From assembly GCF_900187885.1 (NCBI RefSeq), contig NZ_FYEK01000020.1, positions 1 through 64,000 on the forward strand: a stretch of DNA of 64,000 nucleotides, in the 5' to 3' direction. Shown in pieces: positions 27,802 to 50,173 of this stretch (positions are counted from its first letter, which is position 1; every line of letters begins with the position of its first letter). This DNA is from Thermoflexus hugenholtzii JAD2. Its GTDB lineage: Bacteria; Chloroflexota; Anaerolineae; Thermoflexales; Thermoflexaceae. Under the pieces are notes generated by a model, which was not told where the DNA came from, ran no database searches, and saw only the letters and a program-made list of their open reading frames with translations. Both the position numbers and the translations under genes were made by a program.

Positions 27802-27955
27802 CACTCATCGAGAGAGGCGGAGGGACCCGGCCCGACGAAGCCTCGGCAACCTCCCGTGGAGCATCAGGGCCGACCGGGGAGCACGCCGCCCCCCGGCGGA
27901 GCGCTCCCGGGGATGGTGCCAAATCCGGCAGACGGTTCGGTCTGGGAGATGAGGT
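27802..27955 (+). promoter_or_regulatory. SAM-I (S-box) riboswitch
   Basis: The leader shows the S-box core in order: CTCATCGAGAGAGGCGGAGG, GGCCCGACGAAGCCTCGGCA, then GGTGCCAAATCC near 27915 and the closing GATGAG. The P1 helix is CTCATC (27804-27809) with GATGAG (27948-27953). A GC-rich variable arm fills 27853-27910. Binding of S-adenosylmethionine is known to stabilise P1 and release the terminator arm. Here it would shut down the SAM synthetase gene downstream, giving end-product feedback. Confidence 0.95.
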
Positions 27956-45531: not shown

Positions 45532-45560
45532 TTGGACAGTATCGGAAGATCTGGTATAAA
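45532..45560 (+). promoter_or_regulatory. Promoter of the fluoride-riboswitch operon
   Basis: TTGGAC (45532-45537), a 17-base spacer and TATAAA (45555-45560, continuing AAT) give a near-consensus promoter. Transcription would begin around 45567, about 15 bases before the riboswitch. Confidence 0.75.
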
Positions 45561-45580
45561 ATAGAAACACAAGAATGAAT

Positions 45581-45649
45581 CCGGTGATGAGGCTCGCCGG
45601 GCGGGGGATCCCCGCGAACTGCCATGCGAGGCATGGCTGATAGCCTCTA
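45581..45649 (+). promoter_or_regulatory. Fluoride riboswitch (crcB motif)
   Basis: The conserved core is present in order: GGTGATGAGGCTCGCC, GAACTGCC, and GGCTGATAGCCTCTA, closely matching the Thermotoga fluoride aptamer. Helices: CCGGTG (45581-45586) with CGCCGG (45595-45600); GCCATGC (45621-45627) with GCATGGC (45631-45637); and long-range GAGGCT (45589-45594) with AGCCTC (45642-45647). An extra hairpin, GCGGGG/CCCCGC at 45601-45615, is inserted between the first two elements. Fluoride binding would hold AGCCTC and prevent the terminator, turning the genes downstream on. Confidence 0.92.
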
Positions 45650-45675
45650 TCCCGAAGCGGGATAGAGGCTTTTTT
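45642..45675 (+). terminator. Fluoride-controlled terminator
   Basis: AGCCTCTATCCCG (45642-45654) pairs perfectly with CGGGATAGAGGCT (45658-45670) around an AAG loop, then TTTTT. Its 5' arm is the same AGCCTC that closes the fluoride aptamer, so the two folds exclude each other. Confidence 0.92.
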
Positions 45676-45691
45676 GTTGGAGGGTGAGCGG

Positions 45692-46453
45692 ATGAGCTGG
45701 GGGCTGGCGGTTTTGCAGCATGCGTTGCGACAGCCGGGCTGCCCGCTGTGTCGTCTGCAGCGGGAGGCGGAGGCGCGTTACCTAGAGAACCTGCTCTGGG
45801 AGAACGTGAACGATCCCGCCACGCGGGAGCAGTGGGCGGCCGGCCTGGGGTTCTGTGCGCGGCACGCCTGGCAGCTGCAACGCCTGGAGGCCCGCCGCTA
45901 CGGGGATGGCCTCGGGAACGCGATCCTCTATGAGGATCTCCTGCAGCGGGTGATCCCCGTCCTGGAGGCGATGGCCCGGGAGCCAGCCATGGATCCGCTC
46001 CCCCTTCACCGGCGGCTGGCTCACGTCCTCCGCCTCCCCCGCTCAGGGGATCCCGAAGGGATCCCCGGCTTGCAGGGGCGGGCGCGCTGTCGGGTGTGCC
46101 GGCTGGGGGAGGAGACCGCGCGGGCGTATGCGGAGTGGCTGGTCGAAGGGCTGGGGGACGCCGAGGTCCGGGCGCGCTACGCGGCTTCGGATGGGCTGTG
46201 CCTGCCTCACCTGCGGATGACCCTGATCTGCGCCCGCACGCGCGCTCCTCAGGCTCTGGCGGATCTGGCCGGCGATGCCGTCCGACGCCTTCAACGCCTG
46301 CTCGGCGCGCTGCGGGAATACATCCGCAAGCACGACTGGAACTATCGCCATGAGCCGATGAGCCCGGAGGAGCGCCGTTCGTGGATCCGGGTGGTCGCCT
46401 TCTTCGTCGGGGAGGGAGAAGGGGATGGTTCGCTGGACGATCGAGGTGGATGA
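45692..46453 (+). CDS. DUF6062-like CxxC protein, first gene behind the fluoride riboswitch
   Basis: A 253-residue soluble protein in two similar halves, each with a CxxC and a distal C..H pair. The first has GCPLCRLQREAEARY then LGFCARHAWQLQRLEARRYG; the second has RCRVCRLGEETARAYAEW then GLCLPHLRMTLICARTRAP. The pattern CPLC...GFC..H resembles DUF6062 proteins of Clostridia. Four cysteine-pair ligands and histidines suggest two bound metal ions, probably zinc. ATG 45692 follows TTGGAGGGTGAGCGG, 17 bases after the terminator. A role in fluoride tolerance is inferred only from the riboswitch. Confidence 0.8.
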   Translation: MSWGLAVLQHALRQPGCPLCRLQREAEARYLENLLWENVNDPATREQWAAGLGFCARHAWQLQRLEARRYGDGLGNAILYEDLLQRVIPVLEAMAREPAMDPLPLHRRLAHVLRLPRSGDPEGIPGLQGRARCRVCRLGEETARAYAEWLVEGLGDAEVRARYAASDGLCLPHLRMTLICARTRAPQALADLAGDAVRRLQRLLGALREYIRKHDWNYRHEPMSPEERRSWIRVVAFFVGEGEGDGSLDDRGG

Positions 46454-46862
46454 GGAGACCGCGCAGCGCTGGCAGGCCCTTTGGGCGTCCCGGGGCCTGA
46501 GCCCCACGGAGGGTTTGCTCTTCTTCCTGGGGCTGGGAGCCGCGTATGCGGAGGGTCAGGCGGTCCTCTCCGGGGTGGCCGCCGGGACCCATTCCGCGGA
46601 GGAGGTAGAGCGCCTGATCCGGCGCCTGGTGGAGCTCGAAGGACGCCACGCGGTGGTGAGGTTCCGGCTGTTTCAATGCGAGCAAGCGCTCCAGCGTTGG
46701 GAGCTCAGCCATGGGGCCATTGAGACCATGAGCACCGGGCTGCAGGAGGTGGTCCGTCGCCTCCGGGAGGAGAACGCCCAGCTTCGCGAGGCCTTGCGCC
46801 GTCTGCAGGGGGACTCGGCGGCCGGGGCAATGGATCCCGGAGGCGGAGTGGGTGGAGCCTGA
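46425..46862 (+). CDS. Small protein with C-terminal coiled coil (fluoride operon, paralogue 1)
   Basis: A 145-residue protein overlapping the preceding gene by 29 bases. The N terminus (VRWTIEVDEETAQRWQALWA, RGLSPTEGLLFFLGLGAAYA) looks like a ribbon-helix-helix-type beta strand plus helices. The C-terminal half is coiled coil (VVRFRLFQCEQALQRWELSH, VVRRLREENAQLREALRRLQ). The gene at 48132-48551 has the same layout and a matching V-x-R-Y/F-R-x-F motif. No family is recognised. It could be a DNA-binding or scaffold protein. Confidence 0.7.
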   Translation: MVRWTIEVDEETAQRWQALWASRGLSPTEGLLFFLGLGAAYAEGQAVLSGVAAGTHSAEEVERLIRRLVELEGRHAVVRFRLFQCEQALQRWELSHGAIETMSTGLQEVVRRLREENAQLREALRRLQGDSAAGAMDPGGGVGGA

Positions 46863-46883: not shown

Positions 46884-47384
46884 ATGGAACGGATCACCCG
46901 GTTCTGTCCGGAGTGCTGGGCGGAGCTGCCTGCAGGGGAGCAGGCGGTTTGCCCGGCCTGTGGGGCTTCCCTGACGGAGGAGCGCGATTTCTTTGAGAAG
47001 CTGCTCCGTGCCCTCTGGCATCCGGAGCGGACCCGGGCGGCGACCGCGGCGGCCGTCCTGGGGCAGCTGGGGGATCCACGGGCGGTGCCGCCTTTGATCG
47101 AGGCGGCCCTCCGCGCCCGGGATTTCGGCGTCCAGGAGGCTGCGGTGCGCAGCCTGGGACGTCTGCGGGATCCGCGGGCGATCCCCGCCCTGGCGTTGCT
47201 GTTGCGGATGGAGAGCCCCCTCCCCGTGCGCCTGGCGGCGGTGAAGGCCCTGGCGGCCTTTGACGATCCTCGAGCGCGGGAAGCCCTGCGGGGCGCGCTG
47301 AACGACCCCTCCGGGGTAGTGCGGCAGGCGGCCCGGGAAGCGTGGAAAGCCGGTTCTCGCCTGGTGAGCCAAGAGGAGGGATGA
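46884..47384 (+). CDS. Zinc-ribbon and HEAT-repeat protein (fluoride operon)
   Basis: A 166-residue protein. An N-terminal zinc ribbon, RFCPECWAELPAGEQAVCPAC, is followed by about four HEAT/PBS-lyase-type repeats: RAATAAAVLGQLGDPRAVPP, VQEAAVRSLGRLRDPRAIPA, VRLAAVKALAAFDDPRAREA and VRQAAREAW. Such repeats bind proteins or chromophore-carrying subunits. Its ribosome site is weak (CGGGGGGCGCGGG). It lies between the coiled-coil protein and pyrophosphatase genes. No enzymatic motif is seen. Confidence 0.75.
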   Translation: MERITRFCPECWAELPAGEQAVCPACGASLTEERDFFEKLLRALWHPERTRAATAAAVLGQLGDPRAVPPLIEAALRARDFGVQEAAVRSLGRLRDPRAIPALALLLRMESPLPVRLAAVKALAAFDDPRAREALRGALNDPSGVVRQAAREAWKAGSRLVSQEEG

Positions 47385-47506: not shown

Positions 47507-48038
47507 ATGAACCTGTGGAAGGATCTTCTGCCCGGACCGGATGTGCCCCATATGATCCATGTGGTGGTGGAGATCCCCAAGGGATCTCGCAATAAATATG
47601 AGTTCGACAAATCGACGGGCATGCTTCGCCTCGATCGAGTTCTTTATTCTCCCCTCCATTATCCGGGAGATTACGGCTTGATTCCTCGGACCCTTTATGA
47701 GGATGGAGATCCCCTGGATGTTCTGGTGATGGTCACGGAGCCGACGTTCCCGGAGTGCATCATCGTGGCGCGGCCCATCGGATTGTTCCGGATGATGGAT
47801 CGGGAGGTGCCGGATGATAAGATCCTGGCGGTCCCTGCCATGGACCCGCTGTTCCAGGATTACCACGATATCTCGGACATTCCCCAACATTTCCTCCGAG
47901 AGGTTGCGCATTTCTTCGCGGTCTACAAGGATCTGGAGGGGGGGGCGGGTGCGGACGCTGGGATGGGAGAACGCGGATCGGGCCAAGGAGCGGATCCTTC
48001 ACGCCGTCCGGCTTTACGCGGCGCGCGAAGGGGAGTGA
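47507..48038 (+). CDS. ppa: Inorganic pyrophosphatase, family I, frame broken in a G8 run
   Basis: Cytoplasmic Mg-dependent enzyme that hydrolyses pyrophosphate and is strongly inhibited by fluoride. Motifs: [40 protein letters not shown] and the active-site [10 protein letters not shown], then [11 protein letters not shown]. The reading frame meets eight G at 47938-47945. Seven would restore the family C terminus, [20 protein letters not shown], ending at 48038 with about 176 residues. As written, the frame instead runs on with unrelated sequence to 48148. This may be a sequencing error, a real mutation or slippage. ATG 47507 follows CGGAGGCAAGG. Membership of the riboswitch operon is probable but there is a 122-base gap before it. 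Confidence 0.85.
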
Positions 48039-48131
48039 AGGACCCCAACCGGTGGAGGCCGCGGCGGGATGATCGCCGGCGGATCTGCTTCCGGGGCCCG
48101 GAACTGAGCCCATTGAGGAGGGAAGGCAGGG

Positions 48132-50173
<2,042 letters not shown>

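Follow-up and report, generated by a model that had tools for sequence, protein, structure and literature searches.

Fluoride defence has been described mainly as export and as replacement of inhibited enzymes (PMC11139923). The window analyzed here, a stretch of 64,000 nucleotides from Thermoflexus hugenholtzii JAD2, contains an operon behind a fluoride riboswitch that differs from the known regulon of this riboswitch class (RF01734) in being headed by a helical protein with CCCH sites, rather than by an exporter or a target enzyme, in a genome without CrcB. What is such a protein, and what could it be doing at the head of a riboswitch operon?

The first gene of the operon encodes a DUF6062 protein

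The gene (45692-46453, + strand) encodes a protein of 253 residues and starts at an ATG with a good ribosome-binding sequence, GGAGG, ahead of it. A Pfam profile search bears out the membership in DUF6062 proposed in the initial annotation (PF19538, 63.2 bits against a curated cut-off of 27, E = 3.2e-17), with a nearly full-length match of residues 14-224 to profile positions 17-223 of 243; the protein shares with the family both CxxC...CxxH sites and the length of about 250 residues. Its nearest relatives in named records, at 75-97% identity, are from Thermoflexus species. A clear match to an unrelated enzyme family, which would have told against the initial reading of the gene, is absent from Pfam, NCBIfam and the PDB, and NCBIfam models gave no match of any kind. 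Weak resemblances to the mitoribosomal protein S18a (E = 0.2, sequence profile against PDB chains) and, as a second family, to glutaredoxin, rubredoxin-like proteins or DUF7560 (all E > 0.01 and inconsistent in a Pfam scan of 14 members) were rejected. The protein is predicted to be cytoplasmic, with neither a signal nor a membrane segment (maximum mean hydropathy of 0.97 over 19 residues).

A fluoride riboswitch shares a strand with a terminator

Directly ahead of the gene lie an aptamer and a terminator, in agreement with the earlier proposal that this is the first gene behind a fluoride switch. The aptamer (45574-45656, + strand) matches RF01734 with 31.3 bits (E = 5.8e-7 in 401 bases), short of the gathering score of 34, probably as a consequence of a hairpin inserted after P1 (about 45599-45616). 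Such an extra hairpin is common in Chloroflexota fluoride aptamers (alignment A3), so that the Rfam cut-off misses likely real copies, that of the window included. A Chloroflexota model (R1), whose training set includes the window copy, gives 56.4 bits (E = 7e-17), and the aptamer of a relative (G001) reaches 35.0 bits with the Rfam model; the riboswitch is also present in other Thermoflexus. In alignments, the window aptamer has P1, P3, the pseudoknot strands GAGGC and GCCTC, and the conserved GATG and CTGAT segments. It is the only convincing fluoride riboswitch of the genome (97.7% complete), the next match having an E value of 0.1. Upstream, a sigma-70-like promoter (45533-45562, + strand) is a consensus match only, with 10 of 12 positions matching and one such element found against 0.1 expected; an overlapping reading pairs TTGGAC (45532-45537) with TATAAA (45555-45560) across 17 nt.

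The intrinsic terminator (45642-45676, + strand) consists of a hairpin with a 13-bp stem (45642-45670) followed by a T-run; a folding energy of -16.3 kcal/mol (z = -3.9) was obtained for the 36 nt from position 45645. The pseudoknot strand GCCTC lies within the 5' arm of the terminator, AGCCTCTATCCCG, and aptamer and terminator are therefore mutually exclusive, an overlap that reads as the ON-switch arrangement usual for this riboswitch class. The aptamer, the strand common to pseudoknot and terminator, and the presence of a pyrophosphatase gene are all as in the known crcB-motif (RF01734) regulon. Elsewhere in the window, a SAM riboswitch (RF00162) was found at 27802-27955, with 71.6 bits.

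Downstream genes of the operon

After the switch, the gene order is DUF6062, a ribbon-helix-helix-like coiled-coil protein, a zinc-ribbon/HEAT protein, inorganic pyrophosphatase and a paralogue of gene 2. Gene 2 (46425-46862, + strand; 145 residues) overlaps the DUF6062 gene by 29 nt and has a ribbon-helix-helix-like N-terminus, a fold assigned by eye, followed by a coiled coil; its paralogue is gene 5 (48132-48551, + strand; 139 residues; E = 4e-9). All 10 cases sampled from the family of these two proteins, which are possible regulators, lie in fluoride riboswitch operons. Gene 3 (46884-47384, + strand; 166 residues) combines a zinc ribbon with HEAT repeats, and its family is present in riboswitch operons of 13 sampled genomes. 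The same zinc-ribbon/HEAT type recurs beside DUF6062 in other fluoride operons (for example, L231 6911-7348), and in Thermomicrobium roseum and several Chloroflexota it is followed by MoxR, DUF58 and DUF4129-type genes. In these fluoride operons the MoxR-DUF58-DUF4129 sets come directly after DUF6062 and the HEAT gene, whereas they are absent from the window operon.

Gene 4 encodes a family I inorganic pyrophosphatase (47507-48042, + strand; PF00719, E = 5.9e-52), an enzyme known both as a target of fluoride and as a riboswitch partner (PMC11139923). Its reading frame is broken near 47940 (47930-47945) at a G-run, GGAGGGGGGGGCGG in the window against GGAAGGCGGGCGG in a relative (L050), and the normal C-terminus runs on in the +1 frame; the frameshift is either genuine or an artefact of sequencing or assembly at the G-run. 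No CrcB was found in the genome. It encodes one CLC-type protein, whose membrane part is followed by a long tail resembling CBS domains and which in our judgement seems an ordinary CLC rather than a fluoride-specific one.

Two homologous helical units, each with a Cys/His site

The N-terminal unit (residues 14-100; 45731-45991, + strand) carries the motif CPLC...GFCARH and a conserved loop, WENVNDPxxR, and the C-terminal unit (residues 130-225; 46079-46366, + strand) carries CRVC...GLCLPH and a tail motif, ExIRKxxWxxRxE. As first noticed, each half holds one CxxC...CxxH site, formed by C17, C20, C55 and H58 in the first and by C133, C136, C170 and H173 in the second. A single CxxC-x32..36-CxxH unit arises in 8 of 20,000 shuffles of the protein, and the real protein has two. 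The two halves of the window protein share 38% identity across a BLASTP alignment of 42 residues (E = 9e-6), and unit profiles built from 97 relatives align to each other with an hhalign probability of 98 and an E value of 1.7e-13. With every Cys and His masked, the N-unit and C-unit profiles still align at E = 4.4e-7, against 0.034 for a reversed profile and 0.09-0.64 for 12 column shuffles, which indicates that the similarity goes beyond the ligands alone.

The spacing is also regular. Counted from the first Cys of CxxC up to the His of CxxH, 94 of 97 N-units span 42 residues and 67 of 97 C-units span 41, precisely the spans of the window protein (42 and 41). The 97 relatives were chosen because a loose pattern, allowing 20-60 residues in between, finds exactly two units in each; ligand conservation is therefore partly by construction, while the spacing is not so affected. 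At least two CxxC...CxxH units are present in 113 of the 119 relatives collected.

An AlphaFold2 model built from 14 sequences (pLDDT 80, pTM 0.74) is all helix, with helices at residues 18-38, 42-49, 56-69 and 74-96 in the N-terminal half and at 134-153, 157-165, 171-184 and 186-214 in the C-terminal half. The C-terminal half modelled alone gives the same fold (pLDDT 84). The helix order is the same in both halves, so the lack of structural similarity that would have weakened the proposed duplication is not seen, and model and masked profiles together uphold it. By comparison of the sequences, the halves are homologous and reflect an internal duplication, and the protein is accordingly modelled as a pair of homologous units, each all-helical and about 100 residues long. 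Foldseek returned no match (best E = 0.97), whether the whole model was compared with the PDB and with viral models or the C-terminal half with the PDB.

DUF6062 recurs behind fluoride riboswitches in Chloroflexota

Our survey sample comprised 400 Chloroflexota genomes, with DUF6062 in 101 and a fluoride riboswitch in 146. With the Rfam model alone, 23 of 123 DUF6062 matches are co-oriented with a riboswitch and lie within 3 kb downstream of it; conversely, among the Chloroflexota riboswitch matches listed, 22 of 150 have a co-oriented DUF6062 gene within 3 kb. A second model, built from local Chloroflexota copies and run over the loci around DUF6062 matches, places 20 of 109 matches 97-322 nt behind a co-oriented fluoride riboswitch. 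By our own estimate from the counts, the chance of a given gene being first behind a fluoride riboswitch is about 1.5e-4 to 5e-4, so that well under one case, about 0.02-0.06, would be expected, and the co-location in independent lineages is beyond chance. Riboswitch-linked members belong to about 15 GTDB families and are spread across the protein tree; with 116 members on the tree, 17 changes of the linkage label are required (at least 8 on well-supported branches), and linkage has thus been gained or lost many times.

The neighbours of riboswitch-linked DUF6062 genes include pyrophosphatase, enolase, phosphoglycerate mutase (PGM), CrcB, UspA, MutS, a Na/H antiporter and MoxR-DUF58, with pyrophosphatase, enolase and MoxR each present in part of the operons only; the counts are conditional on DUF6062, as the survey started from it. 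Enolase, PGM, UspA, CrcB and MutS in such islands are as in the known RF01734 regulon (PMC11139923). By eye, 40 loci at strong riboswitches without a DUF6062 match hold mostly known partners (Na/H antiporter, CrcB, MutS-like and others). Most Chloroflexota DUF6062 genes have no riboswitch nearby, and 66 of the 116 tree members lack one within the several kb read, partly because contigs end; the function of the family may therefore be broader or otherwise regulated. Neighbours shared among riboswitch-free DUF6062 genes amounted to local synteny among related genomes only. Some loci (L106, L097, L173 and L098) are fluoride islands, in which five to nine riboswitches lie within 12-20 kb and no two of them precede the same gene or operon. 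In Chloroflexota, fluoride islands also hold a divergent DUF6062-like subfamily (cluster 820) that lacks the first CxxC (L091 3434-4162; L097 near 7876).

Relatives on plasmids

Outside Chloroflexota, the distribution was sampled through plasmids. A search of 72,556 plasmids with the window protein (P0001) led to two places, in T. roseum and Arthrobacter sp. ZXY-2, and three Burkholderia plasmids emerged when the Arthrobacter protein served as the query. In all four plasmid regions read, an out-of-sample check, a fluoride riboswitch directly precedes the DUF6062-like gene; it scores 47-56 bits with the Rfam model in Burkholderia and falls below the Rfam cut-off in Arthrobacter (33.1) and T. 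roseum (29.0). On the T. roseum plasmid the riboswitch is followed by TRD_RS12225, a Pfam DUF6062 match (E = 1.5e-9), and then by HEAT, MoxR, DUF58 and DUF4129 genes. The Arthrobacter plasmid has a riboswitch, ARZXY2_4354, a second riboswitch, PGM, an enolase-Usp fusion, two CrcB and MFS; the fusion of enolase to a universal stress protein domain is one 621-residue reading frame (L230 7682-9547). V1241_RS28190 of B. multivorans and KEH56_RS19020 of B. cenocepacia are accompanied by pyrophosphatase, HAD, MutS, a dynamin-family protein and hydrogenase-type subunits, the dynamin-family gene lying directly 3' of the DUF6062-like gene (L232 5709-7826; L233 5691-7796).

ARZXY2_4354 has no Pfam match; the Arthrobacter and Burkholderia proteins match the profile of the collected family with E values of about 1e-14 to 1e-16, in a very small search. 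In these proteins the first CxxC is missing, CPRH is retained and unit 2 contains an additional CxxC, which indicates that not every member requires two intact metal sites. These copies also show that DUF6062 travels with compact fluoride islands.

Discussion

From the anatomy of the leader and the known riboswitch class, intracellular fluoride would bind the leader RNA and stabilize the aptamer pseudoknot. With the GCCTC strand thus unavailable to the terminator, RNA polymerase would read on into DUF6062, the helper genes and the pyrophosphatase. On the known biology of the class, fluoride is thus expected to switch the window operon on, and the context suggests that DUF6062, like other genes of such operons, contributes to fluoride tolerance. 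The recurrence of the family behind fluoride riboswitches in distant bacteria argues, to our mind with high probability, that DUF6062 is a recurrent fluoride-response protein, a member of the fluoride-response set.

How it would act is less certain. Our best guess, offered tentatively and drawn from the helical architecture and the gene neighbours, is a zinc-stabilized helical adaptor or protector of fluoride-sensitive metal or phosphate enzymes. Its clients would include pyrophosphatase, enolase and phosphoglycerate mutase, and its partners would be the zinc-ribbon/HEAT protein and, in certain lineages, a MoxR AAA+ ATPase and a DUF58 protein. From its ligand pattern, each CxxC-x34-CxxH site is most likely a structural zinc site.

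The same ligands could instead be exchangeable, with DUF6062 as a metal buffer, store or sensor answering a disturbance of divalent metals caused by fluoride. All eight are the best-conserved positions (partly by construction), longer members have three to five CxxC, many fluoride-linked members being among those with units so multiplied, and divalent cation transporters are frequent neighbours of fluoride exporters (PMC11139923). However, the sites lie where helices begin within a compact helical fold, which is more typical of structural zinc, and divergent fluoride-linked members lack half of site 1, so we regard a buffering role as unlikely. We give equally little weight to a regulator, a zinc-finger-like nucleic-acid or sigma/anti-sigma partner that would widen the response beyond the riboswitch: DUF6062 is often the first gene and the window operon also encodes ribbon-helix-helix-like coiled-coil proteins, yet no DNA-binding family is matched in Pfam, NCBIfam or the PDB.

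Residues other than the ligands are also conserved, namely E37, D41 and R45 in the loop of unit 1 and E209, R212, K213 and E221 in unit 2, and they likely mark a working surface; D41 and R45 persist, by eye, in the divergent plasmid proteins. Strong conservation of such polar residues, including the ExIRKxxWxxRxE motif, would suit an enzyme that circumvents a step blocked by fluoride or clears an inhibitor derived from it, but neither an enzyme family nor an enzyme fold matches, and we consider catalysis less likely still. A passenger gene, paired by chance with a pyrophosphatase that alone would suffice as the reason for the window riboswitch, is very improbable, as most other lineages have DUF6062 behind the riboswitch without pyrophosphatase, repeatedly as first gene, and as chance pairing is contradicted by the recurrence in about 15 families of Chloroflexota and on plasmids of Actinomycetota and Betaproteobacteria.

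In Enterobacter cloacae FRM, the riboswitch operon ppaC-uspA-eno-gpmA-crcB-orf5249 confers fluoride resistance, as established by knockout and complementation (PMC5533749). Like the window operon, it is riboswitch-controlled and encodes fluoride-inhibited enzymes; unlike it, it has no DUF6062-like gene among the six listed (PMC5533749). The literature searched, outside which lies the 2012 Science list of riboswitch-linked genes, where prior notice is possible, held no mention of DUF6062, and the fluoride link of this family of unknown function is an addition made here.

The recurrence in other families and phyla is a larger result than the single window locus. With DUF6062 repeatedly first behind the fluoride switch and no structural relatives found in the PDB, it points to a missing part of the fluoride response. 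We rate as not far short of an even prospect that the family represents a third class of fluoride defence, neither exporter nor extra enzyme copy, in which a zinc-stabilized helical protector or adaptor would keep fluoride-poisoned metalloenzymes working across Chloroflexota, Actinomycetota and Pseudomonadota, partly on plasmids. DUF6062 thereby gains its first testable role.
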